Part shown: positions 28,389 through 54,965 of the stretch, piece after piece
How the letters are laid out: every line of letters begins with the position of its first letter
Numbering within the stretch: position 1 is the stretch's first letter
Assembly: GCF_008831285.2 (NCBI RefSeq)
Contig: NC_045149.1
Coordinates: forward strand, 10,318,417 to 10,382,416
Length of the DNA stretch: 64,000 nt
From: Nymphaea colorata
Lineage: Eukaryota > Streptophyta > Magnoliopsida > Nymphaeales > Nymphaeaceae
Direction: 5' to 3'
Program-made: the position numbers and the translations under genes
Notes under the pieces: model-generated
The model's database searches: none
Seen by the model: the letters and a program-made list of their open reading frames with translations, nothing else
Told to the model about the DNA's origin: nothing

Positions 28389-28662
28389 TGATAATGTAAG
28401 AGGAACAGAGGCGATGAAGGGAATAAAAAAGATGTATATTCATTGCACACTATGAATGATTTACAAGGTATTTATACATTCAATGGATAAGAATCAACAA
28501 CGATCATATTCCTAATTTATTGCCAAATCTATGATTCCTCCCAATCTGCAACGTCCACCATCTCATTCTTAAATTGTTGCGATCTCCCAATCTGCAACGT
28601 CTACCATATCATCCTCTTGATTTGGTGTGATCTTCAACCGTTACATATAATAACGTTCAACA
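28389..28662 (-). repeat. 3' LTR of Copia element A
   Basis: 274 bp; on the minus strand it begins TGTTGAACG and ends TTATCA. It aligns end-to-end without gaps with 33549-33822. By hand count there are about 19 mismatches (about 7%). It holds an internal repeat, 'cccaatctgcaacgtc', at two positions. Confidence 0.9.
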
Positions 28663-28674
28663 CTCCCCCTCAAG
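28663..28674 (-). promoter_or_regulatory. polypurine tract of Copia element A
   Basis: The minus strand reads TTGAGGGGGAG directly before the TGTTGAACG start of the 3' LTR, the normal place for the plus-strand primer. Confidence 0.8.
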
Positions 28675-31600
28675 TTGGTGCTCCAGGATCGATGAGACCC
28701 AACTTGCATATGAATTTTACGAATGATTCCTTTCCCAACGCCTTAGTAAAAATTTCTGCAATTTGATTTTCAGTGTCTATTTGCTTAGTACAAATTTCCT
28801 TTCTTTGGATCTTCTCTCGAACAACATGATAGTCAATTTCAATATGTTTTGTTCTTTCATGAAACACCGGATTTGCAGATATGTGTATCGTTGCTTGATT
28901 GTCACAATGTAATTCCATTGGTTGATGATGAGTAATTCTAATGTCATTAAGAATGTACCTTATCCATGTCATCTCGCAAGAAGTTAATGCCATTGCTCTA
29001 TATTGGGCTTCTACTGAAGACCTTGAAACAGTGGTTTGTTTCTTAACTTTCCAAGATATTGAGCTTTCTCCACTGAAAATACGAAAACTTGACGTGGATC
29101 TCCTTGTCATTGGGCAAGATGCCCAATCCAAATCGCAAAAAGCTTTGATTATCATGTCACTATGGGATGACAACATAATCCCATAACTTGTTGTTGGCTT
29201 GATGTATCAAAGTATTCTGAAGGATGCCTCTAAATGAGTTGTTCTTGGTTGCGACATGAATTGACTCAATATGTGAACACGATGCAAAATATTGGGTCGT
29301 GTAATGGTTAAATAAACCAAACGACCAATTATTTTCTTGAAAAAGGTGGGATCTTTTAACAATTGTCTACTCTCCATCTAATTTTAAATGTTGCTCTATG
29401 GGTGTTTCACTAGGTTTGGCACCACTGTATCCGGCTTCATGTAAGATATCCATCATACTTCTTTTGGGATAAGAATATCCCTTTCTTGGATAGAGCTACT
29501 TCAATGCTCAAAAAATATTTCAACTCTCCCAAATCTTTCAACTGAAATTTACTGTTGAGGATGACTTTCAGCTTCTTGATGGCATCATGATTGTCTCCTG
29601 CGATGATTATGTCATCAACATATACAATGATGAAAATCATGCATTGTTTGTTGATATTGGAAAATAAGGAATAGTTTGCCTTAGATTGAGAGAAGCCAAG
29701 TTGCTTGAGGGTCTCTGTTAATAACCAGTTGCAAGATGATTGTTTGAGATCATATAAGGATTTGTTTAGCTGAGACACCTTATTCTCCCCCTGTCGGGTA
29801 AAGCCAGGAGGAAGCGTCATATAGACTTTTTCTTGTAGATTACCATGGAGGAAGGTATTGTTGACATCAATTTGAAAAAACTTCATTCTTTGATGGCTAC
29901 AATAGATAAGAGACATCGAATGGTGGTAATTTTAGCGACATGAGAAAAAATCTCTGTGTAATCAATGCCTTCTGTTTGAGTATAATCCTTAGCAATGAGG
30001 CGAGCCTTGTAACGTTTGATAGTACCATCAGCATGATATTTGATTTTATATATCCATCGGCAACCAATAGGGTGTTTACCTGGTAGAAGAGAAACCACGT
30101 CCCAAGTCGAGTTCGTTTCTAATGCCCGAATTTCAACAGCCATAGCATCTCTCCATTCTTGATGTTGCGTTGCTTCTTGGAAAGTGGACAGCTCATGGTG
30201 ATTGAGAATAGAGGTAAGAAACACTTGATATTTATGAGAAAACTTGTGTAAATGGAGGTACTGACTCATGGGATACCTTGTTTCGTTAGGTTGCATAGGC
30301 GCCGACGTTGATTCAGATGATGTGGGCCGAGCGATGGAGTGACATTGATAATCCTTAAGTCGTGAAGGTGGAATGCACCGTCTATTTGATCGCCGTAATA
30401 GAGGCTCATAGAAATCAAGGTTGGTGGCGATAGTATTGACGGTGGTGGGTTGGTGTTGAGCCGATAATGGGAGTGATGGCTGTGGTGCGGGTGTCGGAAA
30501 AGATGATGGAGGTTGATTTGGTTGTTGTGTGCTAGGGGCATGAGGTTGGTATTCATATTCAAATGATTCTTGAGATGGAAGAGGCATAACAACTCCACTA
30601 TCTTGGACTTTGTGGTTTTGAAAAGGAAATATGTTTTCTATAAACTTAACATCTCGATTAGTAAAAACTTCCTGAGTTTCAAGATCATAAAATTTATGCG
30701 CATTTTGACCAAAAGGGTATCCGACAAAGACACATTTGCATGAGCATGAGTCAAATTTGTGAGTTTTACCAATGTTGTAAACATTATATAAGCAACCAAA
30801 AACGTGAATATGATCATATTTGAGAGTTTGCTCATAAAAAACCAGGTTTTGTTTTTATGTAAAGGATGAGTAGGCAAACGATTGAGTAAATAGACAGCAG
30901 TTAAAACACATTCTCCCCAAAATTTGATAGGCAAACATGCTTGAAAACAAAGTGCACGGGCAATATTTAAGAGATCTTTGTGCTTGCGTTCAACCACTCC
31001 ATTTTGTTGGGGTGTGGTGACGTAAGAGAGTTGACGGTTGATACCCTTATGGTGTAAAAGATTCTTCATATTTGCAGAAAAAAATTTAGTTCCATTATCA
31101 CTGTAGATTTTTTTAATGGAGGTTTGAAATTGATTTTCTATAAGATTAATGAATTTTTGGATATAAAAAATGCTTTAGATTTGTAACGCATTAGAAAAAT
31201 CTTTGTGCAACGCGAAAAGTGATCCACAATAGTGAGAAAATAATGAGCCCCAGATAGTGAAGGTGTTTGATAGCCTCCTCAAATATCACAGTGAATCAAT
31301 TGAAATATGCTAGTGGTAGATATGGAACTATTGGGAAATGGTAGCTGAGTTTGTTTGGCAAGATAACATACAAAGCAATGTTCATTAACATGAGAACAAT
31401 CAATAAAATTAAATAATGATTTTAGGCAAGCAAATGAAGGGTGACCGAGTCTAACATGCCATAGATGGGACTGGTTTGGTGAAGCTGCCGCAGCGCGTGG
31501 TTCTTCATCCTCAAGGATATACAAGCCATTCTCCATCCTACCCTTCCCAATCATCCTCATAGAGCGTCGGTCCTGAATTGTACAATAATAAGTATCAAAG

Positions 31601-33536
31601 ATAACACGATAATTGTTTTCAGCAACCAACTTAGATACATAGATAAGGTTAAAAGAAAAAGTGGGAACACATAAGACATGATGTAGTGTAATAGAGAAAT
31701 TTAAATAAGACTAACCAACATGAGTAACCGGAGTGGTTGAACCATTAGGGAGCTTAACAGAATTAGACTGAGCCAAAGAAGGAGAAACGAAGTTAGACAA
31801 GCAATTGGTAATGTAATGCGTAGCTCCGGTATCAATTATCTATACTTGAGATGAGGCCAAACAAACAATAGGTGAGTTTAATGTACCTGCGAGGTTGACT
31901 TTGGGTGTTTTAGAATTCATAAATTCCATAAACTAACGGTACATGTCTAGCATGAAGGAAGTTGGTTGTCCTTGAGGTTTTGTAGATGGAGAGATTGACA
32001 ATGCATCATTGGTGGAATGAAGATTTGCTTGAGGTTGCTGCCGTTGGCCACTAGGCGTGCTCCTTTTGGAAAAACAATGAAGATGGTAGCAGCGGGCTTT
32101 GATGTGCCCAAGTCATTCACAATGCTCACATTGAGGTCAGGATCGACCCTTGAATTTGTTGTTGTCATAATTTTGTTTCTTTATAATAGCCGCAGAAATG
32201 CTATCGGATTGAAGGGGAACATGAAGTTCATGTTGGCATTCTTCTTGAACCAGCAGGGCGTAAGCCTTGGATGTATTAGGAATGAGATCCATGAGTAAGA
32301 TCAAGCTACGAATTGCTCCATAGCTTTCATTCAGTCCCATTAAGAACTGAATTAGTCTGTCATGTTCTTGAATATCATGCGCATTCTTCGTAGGCCCACA
32401 TCCACAGGTGGGCAGTGTGACCATCGAATCGTATGCATCCTAGAGGCCTTTGATTTGAGTATAATAAACACTAATTGAAGATTGTCCCTGCTTGCAATTA
32501 ATAATTTGTTGTTGGATCTGATATAGACGTGGAGCATTTGATTGGGAAAATCTAGTTTTTAACTCGTTCCAAACATTTGCAGCATTCTTGGCATAAACAA
32601 CTGTTGAAGTCAAAGACTTGTGAAGAGAATTAAGCAACCAAGAAAGTACCATGTTGTTGGATCTTTCCCAAGAGATGACGAGAGAGTGGGGAGTCGTGTG
32701 TTTCGGTATAAAACCATCGATAAAACCAATCTTATTTTTGGCTAAGAAAGCCATGATCATGGCCCTTCTCCACGTTTCATATTGATCTCCAGTGAGCTGT
32801 TGACATACAAGACACATACTAGGGTTGTCTGAATGATGAAGAAAAAATGGATTATCTTTTTGAGTGGATGACCAATTGAATCTGATGGTGTACTTGTCAT
32901 TCCATGAAGGTCTGCCATGGTGTGGCACAAATTTAATTAATCAGACGCTTGCACATAAACAACCGATCCTTGCTGAAAAAAAAAAGCACTAGAAGCAATC
33001 CTCACTGAAATAGAAAAAAAAAACAAACGCTCGCTGGCTCCTGGAGACTCCTGGACGTTCAAGGGTGTGCCACTCGACAACCAGATGCACCGGAGAAATC
33101 AACGCGGGCAGAAGCAACTGCCGTGATCAGATGATGCTTTCTTTGTTATCAGTGGTAACAGAGGCAGAAACAGCGGCACAATATAAACTTTCCTTACAAC
33201 TTTAGGTATTCATTATACCACCAATAGAACAGATCAAACTTTTTTTTTTGTTGAATACCACTTGCCTACAAATATCAGTTTGCTAGAAAAGGAAGGTGGA
33301 ACTTTACCGCCAGTGACAACCACACGTTCAGTAACGATAACAGAGAAAAATACAAAGGTAGAAACGATTTTAATCTTGAATGAGTGGATAGAAAATCATC
33401 CAAGGAAAGTTAGAGAGAAGCACCAGGAGGAATTGGTAAGCAGGTCTGACAGATGAAGAAGAACGGTGACCTTCTGGCAGTTGGACAGGCAGTAGATATC
33501 TCTGTTCTTCCCATATTCCTCACAATTGCCAACCTA

Positions 33537-33548
33537 GCTCTGATACCA
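33537..33548 (-). promoter_or_regulatory. primer-binding site of Copia element A
   Basis: The minus strand reads TGGTATCAGAGC immediately inside the 5' LTR. This is the classic plant Copia site complementary to the 3' end of initiator methionine tRNA. It touches the terminal CA of the LTR and so fixes the boundary. Confidence 0.92.
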
Positions 33549-33822
33549 TGATAAAGTGAGAGGAACAGGGACGATGAAGGGAATAAAGAAGATGTATATT
33601 CATTGCACACTATGAATGATTTACAAGGTATTTATAGATTCAATGGATAAGAATCAGCAACGTTCATATCCCTGATTTATTGTCAAATCTATGATTCCTC
33701 CCAATCTACAACGTCCACCATCGCATTCCTAAATTATTTTGATCTCCCAATCTGCAACGTCCACCATCTCATCCTCTTGATTTGGTGTGATCTTCAACCG
33801 TTACATATAATAACGTTCAACA
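33549..33822 (-). repeat. 5' LTR of Copia element A
   Basis: 274 bp, partner of 28389-28662. Followed on the plus strand by the right GACTT duplication at 33823-33827. Confidence 0.9.
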
Positions 33823-39669: not shown

Positions 39670-39677
39670 AACAGAAT
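39670..39677. repeat. 8-bp target-site duplication of the hAT element, left copy
   Basis: AACAGAAT, repeated exactly at 46544-46551. Eight base pairs is diagnostic for hAT transposition. Confidence 0.92.
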
Positions 39678-40558
39678 TAGGGCTGAACACGAGCCGAGTC
39701 GAGCCCGAGCTCGGTCAGCTCGAACTCGGCTCGACTAAATAAAACACGAGCTCGACTCGACTCGACTCGAACTCGATTATAACTCGACTATCCTGGCTCG
39801 AACTCGACTCGATAGTCAATGGTCGAGCTCGAGCTCGGCTCGATTAAGCTCGTTTAGTTGCATCCTAACTTGTTGAGCTCGAGCTCGACTACGGCTCGAA
39901 TACGTGAAGCTCGATAAGGCTCGAACTCGTGAGCTCGATTAAAATTACCCATTTCTGTAGTTTTTCAAGAATAGTTTCTTTTTAATGATAGGCAGCCACG
40001 GCGAATGGACGAAATGACTTTGGGAATAAAAGATAATCAGACGAATACTATGTACTTAAGGAGGTTGAGGATAACCTCATATCTTTAGGAGTTTTGCACA
40101 CAAATGTAAACTAAAAACAACATTAGAAGTGAACTTTTTATCATTATCCATGCTATACAGGTTAGAGTCCTAAAAGGCAACAAATCAACAATTTGTCATT
40201 GACATATTTTGTTCAAATAGTTGTAGAAACAAACCCGAAGACCAATACAGTTTCAGATCCCACCTGTGCACATATGGCTCCTTTCAAATGCGTCCCTGTA
40301 ACCAGATTGCCACAGAAGTTGTATAATGAATAGCATCTAGAAGGGAAATACACTTGGGGAATCTCCTTGGTAGCTATTACGAGCAGCAATCAAGTCAAAC
40401 CACGAGATGCTTCCAAATAAGTGCCTTTGAGAAACACATGCCAACTGTAATAGATGTTATATGCAGATATTCCCTATGATGCTTGATCTGCTCTAAGTGG
40501 GAACAGAGGAAAAAGCACAGAAGTTTGCCAACTTTTCTATATCAGCAATAAAGGATAC

Positions 40559-40658
40559 AAAAGTAAGAAGGAGGACGTTGATGCTGTTGGCTACTACATG
40601 CCCACAGAGTGTGCAGAAGCATACTACGATCCCAATAGCAAGAAATGTAAAAATGAAC
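40559..40658 (-). pseudogene. captured tetraspanin-like exon inside the hAT element
   Basis: On the minus strand a segment bordered by TTTTTGCAG and GTATCC encodes FIFTFLAIGIVVCFCTLCGH and then VVANSINVLLLTF. Adding the Trp that would be completed by the preceding exon, this matches the WFI-x-x-F-x-x-x-GI-x-x-C-x-x-T-x-x-GH-x-x-A second membrane segment of plant tetraspanins. It is 100 nt, so with two bases from an upstream exon it reads 34 codons in phase. No other tetraspanin exon was recognised nearby, so it is a fragment and not a gene. The match rests on pattern recognition. Confidence 0.45.
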
Positions 40659-40855
40659 CTGCAAAAAGTCCAATAGATCTGCATTTAGAACAAAAAAAGA
40701 AAAGAAAAGTTGCTTAGAAATGCAAAAAATTACCCATGAAAACATCCAATAAGGTGTATAAAAAAAATACTATACATCAGTCAGACGGGATTCACGCAAG
40801 AAAATACACAACATATTGCATAACGAAATGGTCAATATGACATCGTGGAGCAGCT

Positions 40856-40960
40856 TTATATATGTAGATGACACTGAAGCATCTATTGGGCAGCTGACAC
40901 ATTGAAACAATGAGGCAGTTGAGCGAAGAGAGATTATTGAAGTGCCATCTACATATATAA
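40856..40960. repeat. 105-nt imperfect foldback inside the hAT element
   Basis: The outer arms TTATATATGTAGATG(A/G)CACT pair over 20 positions with one mismatch. Inner arms (CAGCTGACACATTG against the reverse complement of CAATGAGGCAGTTG) pair imperfectly around a 3-nt loop, leaving an unpaired middle. The fold is in the size range of plant miRNA precursors and also of small MITEs. Confidence 0.5.
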
Positions 40961-41522
40961 CAAAACTATCACAATAGCTTCATTGAAGAAAGTTTAAAAG
41001 GACCAGAGGACTGCTTATTAAGAAATTAAACTAATGTGCTATGAGCAGTAAACGTCGTTGCTTAGGTTGTCACATTATAGTGGTTTAAGCTGCAAATTCC
41101 ATTCAACAAAATTAGTTTTAAATAACATATGAAGCTTTAGTGCAAATCTGTACATGGATCTTCAATCACTCCTTTTACAGGGAAAGTGCAAGGCAAAGGA
41201 TTATAATATATTCAACTAACATGAAAAAAAACTGTCAAAATGCTAAAGAATGGAAGAAAATAAAGGCAGAGCAGAAACACAAATCTATCATAAATATGCT
41301 GCAACCTTTTCCAAAACACTACACAATGATGACGTTCACTTAGTTGCAAACGTGTTAAGAATTTTCATATCTAGTAACACGAAACAGAAAAGGGAAGAGA
41401 TGCAGGGCAGCTATATTGTGTGGTGCCATAATATTCAAAGGCATGGTTGCAGTCCGTGAAAACGGGTTCTAATATTTATTAGAGCCTTGCAACATCTGAA
41501 CTTATATGGTGATCTTTTAAGG

Positions 41523-43959
41523 CTAAGACTTGGAAATGATGTTTTCGCTATTGGTTTTTGCCTTCGATCCTTTTTTGACGAGCAGTTTTCCATCTGAAAC
41601 AGACACTAGAACAATAAGCAAATGAATAAAACCAGTACACAGAAAAAGATCAAGAAAAACTACAAGAGGCAACTGAAACAGACACTAGAATCACATTAGA
41701 TCAAGAAAAAGAAGAAAACAAAACAAAAAAAAAAAAACATTACCAAGAGGCAACTTGAACCATTCTAATGATATATATTCACTTGATTCATCTTCAACCT
41801 GAAAGAAATACATATAGTCAATTAACAAATGATTCACAAAATATTTAATGAATAAAATTTATTCAAAATATACTTACTTGTGATACAACTTCATGCATTG
41901 GATCACCATCATTCTTTACCCAATTACCCAAACAAACCAAAGCTTCAACTGTTTTTGGCACCAATGAACTACGACTATCATTAACAATTCGACCTCCTGT
42001 ACTGAAAGCTCTTTCTAAAGCAATAGAAGTTATTGGAATTGACAACAAGTCACGTGCCATTTGTGAAAGCATTCGATACTTAGATTCCTTATCCTTCCAC
42101 CATTGCAAAATATTGAAAGAAAAAGCATCACCATTATTATCATGCTTAATCAATCTGTCCTCCAAATATGTGTCTATCTCAGATTTGGTGACTTGAAAAG
42201 CAACATTCTCAGCTTTACCTAACAAGTTAAAAAATAGATTTATTCCACATTGTGGGGAGTCTCGATTCTCTCGACTTTGAATACTAGAGGAATTAGTTGA
42301 AGCAGTAGAAATATTGACATCCACTTCATTTCTTTGAATGTAACTTTGATATACATCTTGTAAAGATTGTTTTACCATTTGCATTTGTTCTTCCCTTTCT
42401 TCTCTTGATTGGTAAATTCTTGAAAAGACAAATTCTGATAATGTGAGTTTCACGCGTGGATCTAATATGGATGCAATAATCATTATCAAGTTACAGGATT
42501 TCCAATATTTATCAAATTTCTCCTTCATTTTCACTGCCATTGCCTTCATAAACCCACCTTCACTTTCAACTTTTTCCTGCAATATTGCTTGAACTCTCCA
42601 AATTTCAAGAAAATATAAGTTTGCTGTTGCATAAGATGACCCAGAAAATAGGGTCGACACTGAATAAAAAACTTGAAGAAAATCACATATCACTGCAATT
42701 TTTTCCCAATCCTCGGGTCCAAGCAACCATACCAAACCTGGGTCTTCCATGCTATATCTTGCAAAAGCATCTTTATATAAAAGAGCTCTTTCCAACATAA
42801 AATATGTTGAATTCCATCGAGTTGGTACATCTAACACTAACTTCTTTGACGTTGAAAGATCCAACTCTCTAGCTGCAGCTGCAAAACCATGGAGTCTTGA
42901 AGGTGAAACTTTGATATATTTAACTGCCTCTCTAATGCTAATGATTTCATCTTTAATGGCACTCAACCCATCTTGTACCATTATATTCAAAATATGTGCA
43001 CAACATCGCACATGAAAAAATTTACCTCCATGATACAAGTTGATGCCGCTCTTTTCCATGTTTTCTTTTAATTTTCTGACAAGAACATCATTTGATGAAG
43101 CATTGTCAACTGTAATAGATATTATTTTCTTTTTAATCTTTCACTCTGCAAGATGCTTAGCAATTACATTTGCTAAAACTAACCCAGTATGAGGTGGCTC
43201 AACTTCGGTAAAGTTGATGATACGTTGTTGCATCTTCCAATCTTTATCAATGAAATGTGCTATTAATGCCAAATATCCAAGTTGTTGGTTTGATGTCCAC
43301 ATATATGTAGTCAAAACAATCTTCTCAACACCCTTGAAGACAAGAAGCAATTTCTTCTTTTCATCTTCATATAATTTCATGACATCTCTCTTAACTGTCG
43401 TTCTTGAAACTGGCACTCAATTAGGAAAACCAAGCCTAAGAATGAACCTAAACCAACAATTATCCACTATGGAAAAAGCATGTTCTCCGGTTGCCACTAG
43501 TTTTGCAATTAACTTTCTTATTGCTTGAGCATCAATGTTGGAACCCATTTCCATAAGCTTCTTCGTGACATCTGAAGTAATCCTAGATTTAAAACTTAAA
43601 GTCGTTTGCTTTTTGTTAGCAAAACGTGTCAAACATTTGTGTCTTCTCATTGATGATGTAGAGCCTCCTCCACTTATCGAAAATAGTGCACTGCAGTACT
43701 TACATTTTCTTTTTTTGATACAATTTATAACAACCTCGTAAAAATCATTCCATATTGTAGAAGTCTTTGACCTTGACCTTTTTGCACTACTTATACGTAC
43801 TTCATGAGCATCTATTGAAACCCCTTCATAGTCACGGTCTTGCGAATCTATAGGAGTTTCATTAGAGGAATGTACTCCGATTGGGACATCATCTGAACTC
43901 GGTCTCGAATCACATACTTGTTTGCCCTTATTAATGCTCGAGCTTCCTAAATTTGTCAT
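41523..43959 (-). pseudogene. hAT transposase (BED zinc finger, hAT dimerisation domain), two in-frame stops
   Basis: Cut-and-paste transposase of the Ac/RICESLEEPER type acting in the nucleus. The main exon is 43959-41878 and starts MTNLGSSSINKG. Two further exons are supported by GT-AG borders and phase: 41798-41744 (VEDESSEYISLEWFKLPLG) and 41593-41523, ending at TAG. In all, 736 codons. The BED finger lies near residues 70-110 (CKYC, then MRRHKC). The catalytic core follows, with TVDNASSND and FHVRCCAHILNIMVQDGL, and the dimerisation domain is LLSIPITSIALERAFSTGGR. Only two lesions are visible, both in-frame TGA: one at about 43420 between FPN and VPVSR, one at about 43140 between LAE and KIKKK, the latter where the family usually has Trp. 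Otherwise the frame is open. As it stands it cannot make full-length protein without readthrough. Confidence 0.88.
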
Positions 43960-44695
43960 TCTTCAAACTAGTAATTTTCCCTCCTGCTCAAGCTATTCTC
44001 CTATTTGAACATGAAAAGAAACTACTCATCAACAAGCAAATTTGAACATGAAAAGAATCTAAGTATATTTATGGAACTGACGTGCATAGTATTCAGTTTG
44101 CACTTCATTACTCATCCTTATTGAGCTCGTTTAAGGCTCGATTAAAAGCATGATAAATAATGAATTGAACATAAGAAACAGAAGTAGCACAAATCAAATT
44201 CGTTTATCTGATAATTACACTTATCAAATGTTAAAGCTAAAAAATTGAGAAATGTTAAAATTTTAAGTAAATTATGAGATGGGAAGGTAAAGCAATAAAC
44301 AATAGAAGTATGCTTCATAACGTACAAGATTGTTAAAGCTATTCAGGTTCACACAGAAACTGCTATTACACGGAATGAGACCTTACACAGAAACTGCTAT
44401 TTCAGTTCATTTCTTGAAACTTTCAATTTTGATCACAATCAAACATCACAACTTTCCTTCTATATAAACCTTTTTTCCCTAGGGATAAACTAAGTGGACA
44501 TGTTCTAGTCTTGAACATTTAAAATTCATAAGTTCTCCATTAAAATATCAACAAAAAATAGCATTGAAGAATGCAGAACGTGTCACAAAACAATGCAAGC
44601 AAAACTCATGCTTAAAGTGTTACAAAACTTTGAACTGGTAGGTAACGAAGTAATTGATATAAAACTCCCAACTTTTAGACTTAAGACATACTTAC

Positions 44696-44767
44696 AGTAT
44701 CTCAGTGTAAGTCAAGTTTCCGAGTATTGGAGGAATAGGGCCAGTCAAAAGATTGCAGCTCAAGTCC
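44696..44767 (-). pseudogene. captured ERECTA-type LRR exon inside the hAT element
   Basis: On the minus strand, exactly 72 nt lie between an AG acceptor (TTGAACTAG) and a GT donor (GTAAGTATG). They encode DLSCNLLTGPIPPILGNLTY and then TEIL, matching one leucine-rich repeat of the ERECTA receptor kinase family, whose LRRs are each encoded by 72-bp exons. Neighbouring LRR exons, membrane segment and kinase domain are absent. The segment lies between the hAT end and its transposase, on the same strand as the transposase, so it could be spliced into a transposase transcript. Confidence 0.65.
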
Positions 44768-45029
44768 CTAGTTCAATACCAAATTTGTTATCAGATGGAT
44801 CTCGTCTATCACACAGGCACACAACTTGATGCAGAAAGAAAGTAAAGAAAATAAAAACTTTTGGCATGATAAATACACTTAAGGAATATTGCATCTCCAC
44901 ACTGATACAAAGATACAAAGAGAACTGATTCATCACACACTGCTATTAAGAAGTAAAAATGAGCAGAAACTACTCAACTAGCAGAGAACTGGGTTTCTCT
45001 TACTGTTCTAATCCTTAGTTGAATCTTTT

Positions 45030-45185
45030 TCAAGCTATTGTTAGTGTTGCAAGCTCAGCTGAAATCATGGGAAGAACAGAGGAAGAGTTCTGGCCTCTCC
45101 CAAATGCATCTTGCAACTTGTCGAGAAGATTGTTGCTATTCTCATCAGAGTGAGTACACCTCACCAAAAAATCAAGAAAACACCT
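45030..45185 (-). pseudogene. unidentified C-terminal host-like exon inside the hAT element
   Basis: On the minus strand the frame reads CTHSDENSNNLLDKLQDAFG, RGQNSSSVLPMISAELATLT, then IA and a stop. Its composition is that of a real protein, unlike surrounding frames. An acceptor-like AG precedes it. I do not recognise the family. Just upstream, a 43-bp tandem duplication (45190 and 45233) affects the preceding intron-like sequence. Confidence 0.35.
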
Positions 45186-45959
45186 TGGTGACAGATAAAT
45201 GTCAACAGCAGCAGGACAAGAACAAAAAAAAAGACAGATAAATGTCAACAGCAGCAGGACAAGAACAAAAAAATGCTTGCAGAAAACACCTTGGTGATGC
45301 TTCTAATACATAAGAATGTTCCTTACTAACTGATGAACCAAACTTTAAGTGTGCTTATGATCTTTCTCATGAATTTTAAGCAGTTCAACAACTCACAATG
45401 CAGCTTTAAGAGAAACCCAGTTCTTTAAATCAATTCCTACCTGTCAGATGCTGATAAGGATTTTCCCCTTTTTTCCTCGCCTAAAAGACTATCAGCATAA
45501 GATTAAATCATTCTTCAGAAAAACAAACATGAAGGATCTGGAAACATTCAAGATAAAACATGAAGAATGAACCAATCTGGAAAACTAATCAGCATTTTGG
45601 GGAGTGGGATTTAACGGACCAACTGGTTAATTTGGAGTAGCATTACGGTCGAATGCCATCTTCCAGCTTCTCCCACTTTCCAACACAAACGAGGAAATCA
45701 GATTTCCACGTTCTAGAATTTTGTTTATCAACTTAGGCAGCAAAGAGAGCAACACAAGTGCACGTGCAAATCATTTAAGTGCACTAATCTAACAAAAAAT
45801 AACCCTACTAGTGATACTGACCAAGAAATTCAACCGCATTCAACGTCATTACCGACCTTTAAACTTTTCAAACAAGAAATCTAGATGATCCCCACGTGAT
45901 CACAAGTATGAGGTTCAAAAATAAAAGGGAACTCCAGTAGCAGAAAAAGCGAACTCACC

Positions 45960-46310
45960 TACCAGAGTGCATCCATTCCTGCGGAGCACCTCGATTTTTC
46001 TCCTGAACGGAAATAAAACCAGAGATAGCGAGAGAACCATCAAACAAACGGCCCAGAGGGAGGGGGGGAATATAAGAAGAAAAATTAGGGTTTAGGTGCC
46101 GGTTTGGATAGAGAGAGTCAGAGAGAAGGAGACTTACGTGAAGGGATGACTGATGAGGAGACGACGTGGTCGGTGGTAATCGTCAGGAGAGTTGCGCGAG
46201 GGGGCGAGAGGCGTCAGGCGAGAGACGGAGAGAGGGAGAGTCGGACTCGGAGAGGAGAGAGCGAAAATGAAAAAAGGAAATGATATGAGAAACCCTAAAA
46301 TTCTTCCTGC
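45960..46310 (-). other. leader-like region of the hAT element (probable transposase or captured-gene promoter and 5' UTR)
   Basis: Read on the minus strand, this region has a pyrimidine-rich leader with AAACCCTAA-type boxes near 46095, a donor-like CACGTAAGTCTCC near 46137, and an acceptor-like TTCCGTTCAG near 46000. A short exon-like piece ending CTCTG/GTAGGTGAG follows near 45963. The arrangement resembles the leader of a plant housekeeping gene with a leader intron. It could drive the transposase or derive from a captured gene. Confidence 0.4.
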
Positions 46311-46543
46311 CTTGGCGCTTTCTCATCTTGATTTTGAACCGGTTTTAAAAAAACCGGTTTACTAAATAATCGAGCCGATTCGAGTTTAACGAGTTTCCTC
46401 ACATGAACTCGAACTCGACTCGATTAATTAAACGAGTCGGCTCGTCAACTCGAGCTCGACTCGTTTAACTAAATAAGCAGCTCGTTTAAACTTACCAGTC
46501 GAGTTAAACGAGCTCGAGTAGCTCTACTTGTTGAACAGCCCTA

Positions 46544-46551
46544 AACAGAAT
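46544..46551. repeat. 8-bp target-site duplication of the hAT element, right copy
   Basis: AACAGAAT, identical to 39670-39677. It lies 118 bp upstream of the translin start codon. Confidence 0.92.
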
Positions 46552-46636: not shown

Positions 46637-46669
46637 GGAGAGGCGTGCTGATGCCGCCGCCTCTTCAGA

Positions 46670-49600
46670 ATGAGAGCGCTCTTTCGGACAGCACTGCTCT
46701 CCGTACTCTTCAAGACCCACGGGCATAAGTTCCCTGGACTTCCTTCTGCCCATCACCGGAGGTTCTCTCTGTTCCTCGCTGGGAAGCTCAGGGAAGCCCC
46801 CCGAGGACGAGCGTTCTTCTGCTGCAGCGCGACCATGGGCGACGGCGGCGCCTCCATGGAGAGGCAGTTCGAGGACTTCCGGGCTCTTCTGGACGACTCT
46901 GGAAGCGTCCGTGAGCGAATCCGTTCGGTGGTGTCGGAGGTCGAGTTGGTGGCGAGGGTCATGCAATCCAACCTGCTTCTCGTTCACCATGCCCTAGTTT
47001 CTCCCGGCAAGTGCTTTTCTTTCTTTCGAGGTTTTATAGAGTGTTTTTAGCCTTTTCTGCCTATGGTAGCTCTCTTTGTTCATTTCGGTTTATCTATGTG
47101 GTAGTTTGAAACTTTTTTGGTCGGTTTCTTGAGCTTTCCTATGGTGATGAAATTGTGTGGGCTGTCCATTCAGAGGTGTTGGAGAAGGCTAAGGTTCAGA
47201 TCTCAACTCTTCAGGCGCTTTTTAAGCAGCTCTCTGATATCATCGGCGAACGGCCGGGGCAGTACTACAGGTTGCTTATTGAAAATTCTCTCTGGTTGAC
47301 CTGATTTCGGGGAAGTTGAAGTCTGAATTGGAAGTCTGACTTGTTTCTTGTTCGTACAATGCAATGTATGTAATACGAATAGGTATCATGGAGATTGGAG
47401 AGGAGAAACGCAGTCGGTAGTTTCATCACTTGCTTTTCTTCATTGGCTGGAAACGGAGAATCTACTGACACATGCAGAAGCCGAGGAGAAGCTGGGATGT
47501 ACGGTTCGCTTTTTCAAGTTTTTTCCCCTCCTCTCGGGTTTTTATTTTGAGGGAGACTGGCATGGCTATAAACCATTGCAGATGATGCAGTTTGGTTCGG
47601 CTTGCTAACCGGTTTTGTCTCAGATGGACTTGAGATGAGCGAAGGGAAGTTGCCATGCTGCATAAAAGAGAACTTGTTATTGTATTAGGAAACGTTTTAG
47701 TTTTTTCTGGAAGTTTTCTTCTACGATTATCTTTATATTGATGGTATCGTGGAATCTGAAATAGCTTTTCTGTCTTTGTGGTTACCTGTAATGCAGTGGA
47801 CCCGTCCCAATTTTGTCTTGATATTGAAGACTATCTCATTGGTAAGTGGGTTTGTTGTTTGGGCTACATCTTTGAAAATTGATATTGAAGTTTCCCGGTA
47901 ACAAATGGTGACTTTTCTATTATATGACACTATAGCAGTGATATGGCAGCCTTTTCTTTCTCTCGTGTTTTTCTGTTGAAGAGCCTATACATTCATATGC
48001 AGGAATGACATAGATATCCGCCTACATGTTACTCAAGAATATGCACTTCTTTTCAATAATTATAAATTTTATAGCCACATTTGCAGTCAACCTTTTCAAG
48101 GCTCTTTTGGGAACTTGAAATGGGGATTAATGGTGAGATAAGTTATCCCTAAAAATCTACTGCTGTTTGGGGTTCTGAATTCAGAAGATAGAGTGGAGAT
48201 GGAGATGCAACACCTTTCATCTCCTCTTCAATAATGGTCTCCTGAGGGTGTAGTTGACAAATTCACTCTCATCTCCTATTTCTCCATCAGCACTGCAGCT
48301 CCTATCTGTGTCATTCTTTGCTGTTAGAGAGAGTCTAGAAAGGAAAACGGGCTTTACGTTATATTGGCCATGTCCTGTATTATACTTTGCAAATTATGTT
48401 CATGGGCACATTGTCCCCCTAGGAAGCAGGTTTTATACTTTTTACTAAGCTCTGAGTTAGTTTCATTGCCATCATCTTAATGATTTCCACTGTTGCTTTC
48501 AGTACTAGAAAGTCAACGTTACATTATCGCGTTTGGCTAAATAAGTGAATTTTTCTGGTGGTAGGTGAAAGAGAATGGTTGTCGTTTTCTTTTCTAGAAC
48601 AAGTTTCTTCCTCTTCTTGCCTGGTCACAATTCATTGAAGGAACAATGGTCAACCTCTTATTTTCTTCTGCATATGTCTGTTATTAATCTCATTTTTTTC
48701 TTTTTATTAATCTCATTTTTGTCTTTTTTTCTGTTTGATATTTCTTCTTTACCTAGCTCATTGATTGCCATTGTGGCCTTTATCTTCTTCGTCTCTACTA
48801 TGCACTTCCTTGTTTGTCTTTCTGTCTCATTCTGGATAACTTTTTGGCCATCTTATTTCTCTCATAGGATTTGATGGATGACATGTTACTGATGGTTATC
48901 TAGTTTTATTTTTTGTTTGCTTATGAGTTTCAGAGTTATTTTATTCTTACCTAATTTCTTTAAAATTTTTATCTAATTTCTTTAAAAATTTTACTTAATT
49001 TCTTTAAATTTTTTCAGTTTTTAAAGTCGTCCAAGTTTTTCTCCGGAAAAAAAACATTCGAGAAAGATCTTGCCATTAAAAGCCTGAGAACAATATTTGT
49101 GACAATGATATGTATAAATAGAGATTGACTGAACGAATTCCCATGTACAATGGGAATCCTCTCCACTAACAAGTAACACCCGCCTACTGCAACTATACAC
49201 CCTATAATCAGTCCACATAGTCAATGAAACTTTCTTTCTCTATCTCCATGCACACACACACACATAAATAGGAGTGGAAATCCTCTGGCCAGTTTAAGCT
49301 GCATCCATAGCAGTGCAAAAATAGGTAATATTCGACAATATCATAGAACTAGTTGCTCTTGTTAATTATTGCCAAATATTTAGGCTGTTGTTGAAAATTT
49401 CCTTTATTTTTAACTGGTTATCAACTTGACCATAAATATGTGGTTTTCTCATAGAAGTTTTTTATTTTAAAGTAACCTACACCAGACCATCTAGCTGCAT
49501 CTGCAATTCTACGCAATTTCTTTTCCGAGTTTCATGATTCTGATCGGTCTCAAGATCGCTGAAGCTGCAGAAGCTAGGACTAGCATAGCCACAAATATAA

Positions 49601-52039
49601 CGATTTTTTTGAAAATATCGTGATAGATTGATGAAAAAAATGAAGAAAATGAAAAAAAGGGGAAAATATCGCAATATTTTGAAAATATCATTAAAAATCA
49701 TTTTATCACGATTTTAACGTGATTTTTCGTGATTTTTTTATTTATTTTTTATTTCATTCTGTTTTCATTTTTTCCAACTTTTGTTTCATTGTTTTATTTC
49801 CTCTTGTTTTAGGTAATACTTATTAGTTTTTCATTTCTTGTGTTTTTTACCTAACATTTTGATTTTTTATTTTAAAAAAAAAATCCGAGATTTTCCCCAT
49901 ATTTTTCTGAGAAAAACAACTTTGGCGAAAGATACCCGAGAAAAACCTTGCAATAAAAACCCGAGAACGATATTTGTGGCTATGATTTTGAGAAAATTTA
50001 TCTTGATGATATGGACGTCTGGGGAAGATAATAGCATGTTGCTGATAGTTTTAGTGATCAAGTTTCTTATTTGAGTATGTAACTTGGGGAATGCAGAAGT
50101 GGTAGGGGTATTTAGATCATCCATTAGCATGTTGGTTAAAATATGTGACCTCTATTTTGATACTTCCAAGTTGCTAGATATGCTTCTTAATGGATTGGTA
50201 TTTTATGGTTTGCTGATTCATTGTGCTTTTGCAGGATTATGTTTCATGTCAAATGAACTCGTAAGTATTCAAGAAGCTGTCCATCTGTCACATTTTCTCC
50301 TTTGTCTGCTTTGCTTGTACTTTCAAAATGATTTTTCTTATTCAGTTTTTTCTTTCTACTTTTGCACGTGCTTGGTCCCTCATATGATCTCTACGACTTT
50401 TATTTATAATGCAAATTTGTTTTTGCAGCCCAGATTTGTGGTGAATCAAGTGACAGCAGGCAATTATGATTGCCCGAGGAAAGTGCTCAAGTTCCTGACT
50501 GACCTTCATGCTGCATTTAGGCTGCTCAATCTTCGGAATGACTTCCTGCGCAAGAAGTTCGATAGTAAGTGCACTTTTTGCTTTGATCTTGATGGTGCAA
50601 ATATGTTGCTTGCTTTGATAAACCTGCTACTGTGCAGAAGGTAATGCAATCAGAGTCATAGTTCATTAAGAGAAGCGGCTTAGTTGGAGTTAGTCAGCTA
50701 CTGGATGAAATTAATTGGGTCAGCATAATTTCATCCTGTAACTGAACTTGTAGCAGTAGAATCAGTTTAGATCTGGGTTGGAGTCAGACCCCTGTTGGGG
50801 TAACTGAGTCTTTGTTGGTTTTGAAGGAGGCTTACTAGTCCTAATTCTGCTGGAAGGTCTTTGGTTCTCGTATGCTAAGTGAAAAGAACAAACAGTATTC
50901 ACCAAATTCAATTCTAGCCTACAAGTATTTTTTTTCATTTTACCTGATTATAACTAATTTTATTATATTGAAGGCAGCATTCTGTATCTGTCGGATTTGG
51001 GTGTTCATTGCCTGGATTTTATGTTATGGGAAGCACCAAGTTAGATGTTTGATGGATATGCTTCTATATTCACAGTTCACACCATATTTTTACTATCCAT
51101 GTTGACACTGTATTGCGTGAGAAAGTTTATGTTGGGAGCTAAGTATGCTAATTGTAATCCCTGGCTTGTCTGTCCTTTTCTCGAAGAGTATTTGACGTTT
51201 CAGTCAGAAGAATGACATCAGTCACAAACAAAACTGCAAGAATTTTAGTTGCCTTGAGGAGTTGCTCAGGTGCTGAATATTTCTTTAATCTGTGGAGTAT
51301 CAGTGTTGATCTTCACCAAGGTTGCTGAAGTCCTCCAGACTGCCTAGCGTGAAACTACTGCACCTTTTTGAGAGGAGTAGATGGCTGTGGCCGCCTGGCC
51401 TGGGTATTTGGAACCTGAACCTCCTCAAATTGGGCCCTAGTGAGGACAAGATTCTGTGGGCTGGGCCTGCAGGTGGCCTTGTCGCTGTATGTGGGTTACA
51501 AATACATATATCTTACCACAGCTCACAGAGTCGGTTAGTTCAACTCAGACCCATGAACTGGCTTGAACTGTAGGCAATTTGATCTGTCAAATTCGCTGGT
51601 CAAGTTGTTTGGGTTTCATGGCTGGCTTAGTCCTAGATTAGTGAACTTTAACTGAATGGAAGATGTGATTTCTAATTTATTGCTGCATATGTCTGGGATT
51701 TTCATGCTATAATGTTTGATTCCTTTGTTTCTACGCAACTTTGGTTTGCGTAACTGCGTTGAACAAACACTGCCTATTATGTATCTTTCTTAAGCGTTGT
51801 TATATATTCCATTTCTTGCAAGATGTGATCCTACTGCAGGAAGTTGATCATTGTATGATATTTAATTGGACTATAATAAACTACTATGATCATTCTAAAT
51901 GAAGTTCGTTCTTGTTTCTCCCTTCATGACAGGCCTGAAATACGACTTGAGGAGAGTTGAAGAAGTTTATTATGATGTCAAAATTCGAGGCTTGGGTGGT
52001 GATTCGGTAGACAACTGCACTGAAGGGGATAAGAGTTAA
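46670..52039 (+). CDS. TSN: translin (single-stranded DNA/RNA-binding octamer protein)
   Basis: Translin forms ring octamers that bind single-stranded DNA and RNA and, with TRAX, the C3PO nuclease. Seven exons: 46670-47006, 47174-47270, 47383-47498, 47797-47841, 50235-50260, 50429-50564, 51933-52039; 864 nt, 287 residues, all phases agree. Family hallmarks include MERQFEDFRALLDDSGSVRE, RPGQYYRYHGDWRGETQSVV, LDIEDYLIGLCFMSNELPRF, NYDCPRKVLKFLTDLHAAFR and LRRVEEVYYDVKIRGLG near the C-terminus. The first intron uses a GC donor (CCCG/GCAAGT); phase excludes the nearby GT. The roughly 60-residue N-terminal extension is Arg- and Ser-rich with little acid, like an organellar targeting peptide. In-frame ATGs at 46835 and 46856 give cytosolic-length forms. 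The promoter is interrupted by the hAT insertion. Confidence 0.93.
48945..49018. repeat. three-unit short tandem repeat in translin intron 4
   Basis: Three units of 'taatttctttaaa(a)attttt' stand about 24 bases apart. Confidence 0.6.
49020..49115. mobile_element. truncated Mutator-like MITE copy in translin intron 4
   Basis: 'ttctccggaaaaaaaacatt' through 'gagaacaatatttgtgacaa' matches the right-hand end of the MITE at 15168-15465 and of 49586-49985. The left end is missing. Confidence 0.45.
49586..49985. mobile_element. Mutator-like MITE in translin intron 4
   Basis: Inverted ends CATAGCCACAAATAT on the left and ATATTTGTGGCTATG on the right (15 bp perfect). The AT-rich interior contains 'cccgagaaaaacctt' as in its relatives. 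No target duplication is visible. Confidence 0.6.
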
Positions 52040-54175: not shown

Positions 54176-54604
54176 TATTTGGAGTGTCCCCCACCTCTTT
54201 CGGGGTCTTCAACCTTTTGAGTTTTGACTTGAAAAATTGAAAATTTCACGTGTCCATAATAAAAGTGAAACTACAGCAATGTTTGCCTCAAGGACATATA
54301 TTCAAATAGGCTAGCTTGGGATGCATTGTAAGCAGAGCCACTTTGCTCGTTGGCCATTTCAAAAATCCAAGTGTGAAAGGTAGGTCTTAAATGCAAGTTG
54401 AAGCATGTGGAGATCTCGCCATCTAGATCTCCTTCTAATACATACATGACCTTAGACCTCTCTCTCCCCAAAGGAGTGAAATTAATCCTTTTGCTCACCG
54501 AAAAACTAGAGCAATGTTCTTTTGATATTTTGGTAGTTCAACAAAAGTTAAGCAAATATTACATACGAAATGAGTTTATATATAGATATTTTTATTGAAT
54601 GTTT

Positions 54605-54965
54605 AAGGCTCACTGCGGTTAAGCCTAAGCATGGGGCTCGGCTCCCGGTGAGTATCCGGCACCTGGCCTGACTCGAGCCCAAAAAAAAGGGCATCAGGTT
54701 GACCTGATAATTTATCGAGCTGGCTTGGGTGAGCTCGATAAGCTCAGGTGGGGCTGGATAATATTTTTTTAATATATATATATATATAAATATAATTATA
54801 ATATGTTATTAAGATTAATTATATTTATTTATTATTTAATATATATTTTTTAGATTAAACGGAACGAGTTCGAGCTCGAGTTTTAAGTATCGAGTTGGGC
54901 CCAAGCTTGGGTTTCGGGTGTTGGGTCAAGCCGACTTCTTCTCGGGCCGGCTTAACTGTAGTTGT
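54605..54965. repeat. dispersed AT-core/GC-arm element, copy 3
   Basis: GC arms on both sides ('gctcggctcccggtgagtat' and 'cgacttcttctcgggccgg') enclose an AT core containing 'gattaattatatttattta', closely like the core of 310-560. Terminal nucleotides are unresolved. Confidence 0.45.

Follow-up and report, generated by a model that had tools for sequence, protein, structure and literature searches.

The element found between positions 39678 and 46543 of the 64-kb window (the whole stretch of DNA analysed here) is, with high probability, a decayed transposase-bearing hAT transposon of plant type whose arms hold host genomic DNA acquired before or at its last jump. Its sequence supports the presence of pieces from at least one, and probably two, unrelated host genes, namely an ERECTA-type LRR exon in the right arm and a tetraspanin-like piece in the left arm. 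In the following sections, we present the boundaries and the transposase of this element, the identity of the captured pieces and the ways in which they could have been acquired and used. These aspects are then compared with the gene-capturing elements already described.

Boundaries of the element

The element is 6,866 bp long and lies on the minus strand, which is the strand of its transposase; it was delimited from its ends, the duplication surrounding it and the transposase itself. Both ends (39678 and 46543) start with TAGGGCTG, and 10 of the 12 terminal positions agree between TAGGGCTGAACA and TAGGGCTGTTCA. A perfect 8-bp target site duplication, AACAGAAT, directly flanks these coordinates on the left (39670-39677) and on the right (46544-46551). 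The terminal inverted repeats of the hAT superfamily are of the TA(G)GG type. Two of the features by which this superfamily is recognized, a target site duplication of 8 bp (AACAGAAT) and short terminal inverted repeats (TAGGGCTG at both ends, with the 10/12 agreement given above), are thus found here. Each end continues into a CTCG-rich subterminal region, at 39678-39950 on the left and at 46355-46543 on the right. On the left, 39686-39950 holds 19 copies of the motif CTCGA; on the right, 46350-46543 holds 6, and the intervening 6.4 kb contributes 6 more. The matching ends, the subterminal motifs and the perfect duplication that had been announced in the original prediction were all seen. Since the duplication flanks the whole unit, the element must have inserted as one piece after the capture.

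The transposase

The transposase was identified from its domains and its open frame, which extends over 41863-43962 on the minus strand and accounts for 2,100 of the 6,866 bp. This corresponds to 31% of the element, in keeping with the earlier estimate of about a third. The RNase-H-like and C-terminal dimerisation domains of hAT transposases are both recognized by Pfam above cut-off (hAT-like_RNase-H, E 2.1e-30; Dimer_Tnp_hAT, E 6.8e-27), and a zf-BED match lies under its own cut-off (18.3 versus 20.6 bits). In the Protein Data Bank, the closest solved relative is the Hermes transposase; the middle part of the frame, when searched alone, found no match there. The frame reads TTYMWTS where TTDxWTS, the hAT transposase motif holding the first catalytic acid, would be expected. 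A pattern search for relatives of the transposase in two contig collections (genome and viral) returned 50 and 6 pattern-matching stretches, none of which was confirmed.

Two in-frame TGA stops, at 43417-43419 and 43141-43143, interrupt the transposase frame, which would be uninterrupted in an autonomous hAT. The present copy is therefore not autonomous, and the earlier description of a potentially autonomous-type element does not hold for it.

The captured pieces

The ERECTA-type LRR exon is located at 44696-44767 on the minus strand. It is 72 nt long, in phase 2 and bordered by AG and GT within the flanks TGAACTAG and GTAAGTAT; it translates as DLSCNLLTGPIPPILGNLTYTEIL, and its donor-side border, GTAAGT, is consensus-like. 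Exons of 72 nt are typical of ERECTA genes; no paper on ERECTA with exons of 72 bp came up in a literature search. A tblastn comparison with residues 289-312 of Arabidopsis ERECTA, whose sequence was entered by hand, aligned the exon with 19 identical residues out of 24 (40.0 bits, E 8.8e-6), to be compared with a best score of 28.1 bits among 60 dinucleotide-shuffled windows. An independent search of the Protein Data Bank, in which the match itself does not depend on the hand-entered sequence, placed the exon on two ERECTA relatives: ERL1 (chain 5xkj, residues 269-289) and ERL2 (chain 5xkn, residues 265-285). The repeat matched in 5xkj is the one aligned by the same ERECTA stretch (the hand-entered segment starts at 244 of 5xkj, and the repeat at residue 26 of this segment). 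In the summed ranking, ERL1 and ERL2 come after LRR kinases with many repeats (FLS2, MIK2 and GSO1), so that an ERECTA identity could not be read from this ranking by itself. As judged from these sequence comparisons and from the two splice borders, the identity of the exon is solid, and the 72-bp ERECTA-type exon first proposed at these positions is retained with its AG/GT borders. No further ERECTA exon was detected by tblastn; the next match (44332-44382, 22.7 bits) falls inside the shuffled range.

On the minus strand, the acceptor TTTTTGCAG is followed at 40658 by the tetraspanin-like piece, which has the frame FIFTFLAIGIVVCFCTLCGHVVANSIN. A hand-entered plant tetraspanin aligned by gapped tblastn with 40658-40538 at 35.4 bits (E 2.3e-5), and the best of 60 shuffled windows reached 26.6 bits; this shuffle test understates chance, since the tetraspanin family had been picked among thousands in the original prediction. 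The similarity extends with gaps to 40538, past the border originally placed at 40559; the GT found there stands in no better context than TTTGTATCC, and this 3' border is therefore doubtful. The 100-nt exon proposed at 40559-40658 is thus kept for its similarity and not for its border, and the segment 40538-40658 is probably a tetraspanin exon with an uncertain 3' limit. The piece has no match in Pfam or in the Protein Data Bank. The hand-entered protein is recognized as Tetraspanin by Pfam (E 6.1e-12), and a hand-entered tetraspanin stretch of 36 aa reaches only E 0.19. Because such short true stretches also score poorly, the silence of Pfam on the pieces says little.

A third piece, regarded in the original prediction as a C-terminal exon at 45030-45185, was rejected as a host exon since neither Pfam nor the Protein Data Bank lends it support. 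Its 90-aa frame found nothing at E<=10 in the Protein Data Bank and a single Pfam match, ETRAMP, far under the cut-off (16.7 versus 29.1 bits); its 42-aa piece found nothing at E<=10 in Pfam. Shuffling the right arm 200 times produced an open frame of 90 aa or longer in 124 cases, and the openness of 45030-45185 is therefore expected by chance. Pfam, searched with all 12 frames of both arms (39951-41482 and 43963-46355, stops read as X), gave no match above cut-off, CCM2_C (E 0.097) being at chance level. Together with ETRAMP, the sub-cut-off matches to Dbl7, LLGL, DUF5604, pPIWI_RE_Y and SID-1_RNA_chan were dismissed as chance.

It could be argued from the failure of this third piece that the two others are not host exons either and merely represent short open stretches resembling LRR and membrane proteins. 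They are indeed short, at 24 aa for the LRR exon and about 40 aa for the tetraspanin-like piece; the LRR repeat is a generic motif, and the LRR_1 match of the ERECTA-type exon lies below the Pfam cut-off (15.5 versus 20.6 bits). However, a hand-entered true ERECTA stretch of equal length also remains under the LRR_1 cut-off (17.6 bits), just as the true tetraspanin stretch is weak in Pfam. Moreover, the ERECTA and tetraspanin scores each exceed the best of their 60 shuffled windows, and the ERECTA-type exon has exact exon borders. We consider a chance resemblance extremely unlikely and retain a host origin for the ERECTA-type exon and, as probable, for the tetraspanin-like piece.

Acquisition of host sequences

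The preserved splice borders point to the uptake of genomic DNA rather than of a spliced transcript. Under the scenario that we favor, the host pieces would have entered as genomic DNA with their introns included, probably by template switching during the repair of a break or of an excision gap in a copy of the element. They would have been placed between the subterminal region and the transposase, on either side of the latter. The unit could then have moved as one, with a transposase provided by an intact relative or by the element itself before the stops arose.

Traces of a capture mechanism within the element do not rise above background for the marks considered, which were short-range duplications, an internal subterminal relic and Helitron ends. 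Short-range duplications, defined as exact, of at least 13 bases and within 500, are not in excess as a mark of template slippage: 5 were counted in the 6.9-kb element versus 34 in the other 57 kb. A subterminal-like motif at 44123-44144, considered as the relic of an older right end, was rejected because it does not exceed chance, 23 of 100 shuffles giving as much.

Helitrons can carry exons of several genes, and the pieces could have been brought by such a gene-capturing element nested in the hAT, which itself would have captured nothing. A perfect 18-nt inverted repeat of the right arm (44985-45002 and 45407-45424, 404 bp apart) could belong to a nested insertion. The whole window has two exact inverted repeats of 18 bases or more lying within 1 kb, and this is one of them; the ERECTA-type exon is located outside the stretch that it brackets, and no duplication was seen by eye outside 44985-45424. 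Helitron-like 3' ends (a 3' hairpin followed by a CTRR end), looked for with a simple scan, occur twice in the whole window, and neither strand of the element contains one. In addition, pieces are present in both arms, which would call for two nested insertions if the tetraspanin piece is real. This origin is accordingly very unlikely, and direct uptake by the hAT remains the preferred reading.

Two other observations concern the arms. A hairpin at 40856-40960 in the left arm has a folding energy of -39.2 kcal/mol (z -5.8), which none of 200 shuffles equalled; a small foldback element and a precursor of microRNA type are both conceivable. The hairpin was rejected as a known microRNA, given that no Rfam family reaches its gathering score in the window and that only sub-threshold matches occur nearby. 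In the right arm, a 17-bp direct repeat at 45175-45297 brackets a 41-bp tandem duplication (45190-45230 and 45233-45273), and this segment is a local rearrangement.

Comparison with known gene-capturing elements

The uptake of gene pieces by plant hAT elements is already known, and the present element is a good but ordinary example of it. The Hatvine-6 family of grapevine, published in 2008, is presented in the relevant passages of its report as keeping a hAT transposase and ends around a variable remainder that is often identical to exons and introns of host genes (PMC2528002). The same arrangement is encountered here, with a genic exon and presumably intron sequence between hAT ends and transposase, as judged from the two splice borders of the ERECTA-type exon. 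The difference lies in the material, since several Hatvine-6 copies were compared with the host genome in the corresponding part of that study (PMC2528002), whereas the present element is a single copy with two stops in its transposase.

Pack-TYPE hAT elements were described in maize and rice in 2022 and, according to the sections of the survey devoted to them, are more abundant in maize (PMC8903248). Like the present element, they consist of host gene pieces enclosed by hAT ends and flanked by a duplication; here, these pieces are one solid (ERECTA) and one probable (tetraspanin) stretch of host coding DNA. In contrast, they are defined in the same sections as non-autonomous, any element with a transposase match being classed as autonomous and excluded from the Pack class (PMC8903248), whereas our element contains the transposase frame 41863-43962. 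In animals, Pack-TIRs of the hAT superfamily similarly contain host sequence inside hAT ends, and the portion of the report treating their origin proposes a gap-filling model with template switching (PMC8277862). The cases presented there are animal ones, mostly single-copy and compared with their donors, whereas the present element belongs to a plant. The term hAT is reported to occur 0 times in the main text of a 2026 review of plant gene capture (PMC13317346). In the light of the Hatvine-6 family in 2008 and the Pack-TYPE hAT elements in 2022, as far as the sections cited above describe them (PMC2528002, PMC8903248), the earlier statement that a hAT with pieces of several genes is less usual was overstated.

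A transposase-bearing hAT with a two-bordered ERECTA-type exon indicates that gene capture is not limited to transposase-less Pack elements. Surveys equating a transposase match with autonomy, as the quoted sections of the Pack-TYPE study do, would skip the present element (PMC8903248); since such surveys leave out transposase-bearing elements, captures may be under-counted. A more ambitious proposal, which we regard as unlikely, is that exons from two or more host genes, all in sense orientation, entered a transposase-bearing hAT lineage between the subterminal regions and the transposase, perhaps along with a host promoter and its leader exons on the right side, and that this lineage stayed mobile with them. 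If true, full hAT elements would be multi-gene exon shufflers missed by surveys that exclude transposase-bearing elements.

Possible use of the captured exons

The two exons identified share the strand of the transposase, and the ERECTA-type one keeps its two borders, the donor being the consensus-like GTAAGT. Sense splicing into chimeric transcripts would thus be possible. The captured exons could then be used, through splicing into transposase or read-through transcripts, to form chimeric proteins or regulatory RNA. Possible leader exons were noticed by eye upstream, within 45963-46280 and on the same minus strand: a weak candidate for a short leader exon at 45963-46002, between TTCAG and GTAGGT, and a possible first leader exon at 46138-46280, of approximate start, ending at GTAAGT and with raised G+C (0.53 in 46025-46274). 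However, two exons out of two fall on the transposase strand by chance in one case out of four. In addition, the ERECTA-type frame departs from its relatives at conserved positions, the tetraspanin-like piece can be aligned only with gaps and the transposase is broken. That the exons are put to use is hardly credible, and splicing of decayed exons along with a broken transposase is unlikely to be of consequence. The captured exons have decayed, and they are most likely without function.

Surroundings of the element

The contents of the window suggest that it comes from a plant: besides the plant-type receptor piece, it has stretches matching zf-DNL, ABC transporter, mTERF, Translin and a copia-type polyprotein. 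A plus-strand TATAAA (46630) and an ATG (46670) are located 86 and 126 bp downstream of the hAT element, respectively, and an exon of the Translin family follows on the same strand at 50075-50641. The ATG would be the start of this Translin-family gene, whose promoter may be split by the hAT insertion; the frame 46652-47047 has no match in Pfam. A copia-type LTR retrotransposon occupies 28389-33822, with 274-nt repeats that are 93% alike (28389-28662 and 33549-33822) and a minus strand encoding RVT_2 and SH3_retrovirus domains. The CTCG and GAGCTCG motifs abundant in 54600-54940 resemble the subterminal regions of the hAT element, with a best score of 16.5 at 54852-54895, and the AT-rich part of this stretch is 80% alike to 393-472, within 370-472. 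Both locations perhaps correspond to another element, devoid of TAGGGCTG ends.
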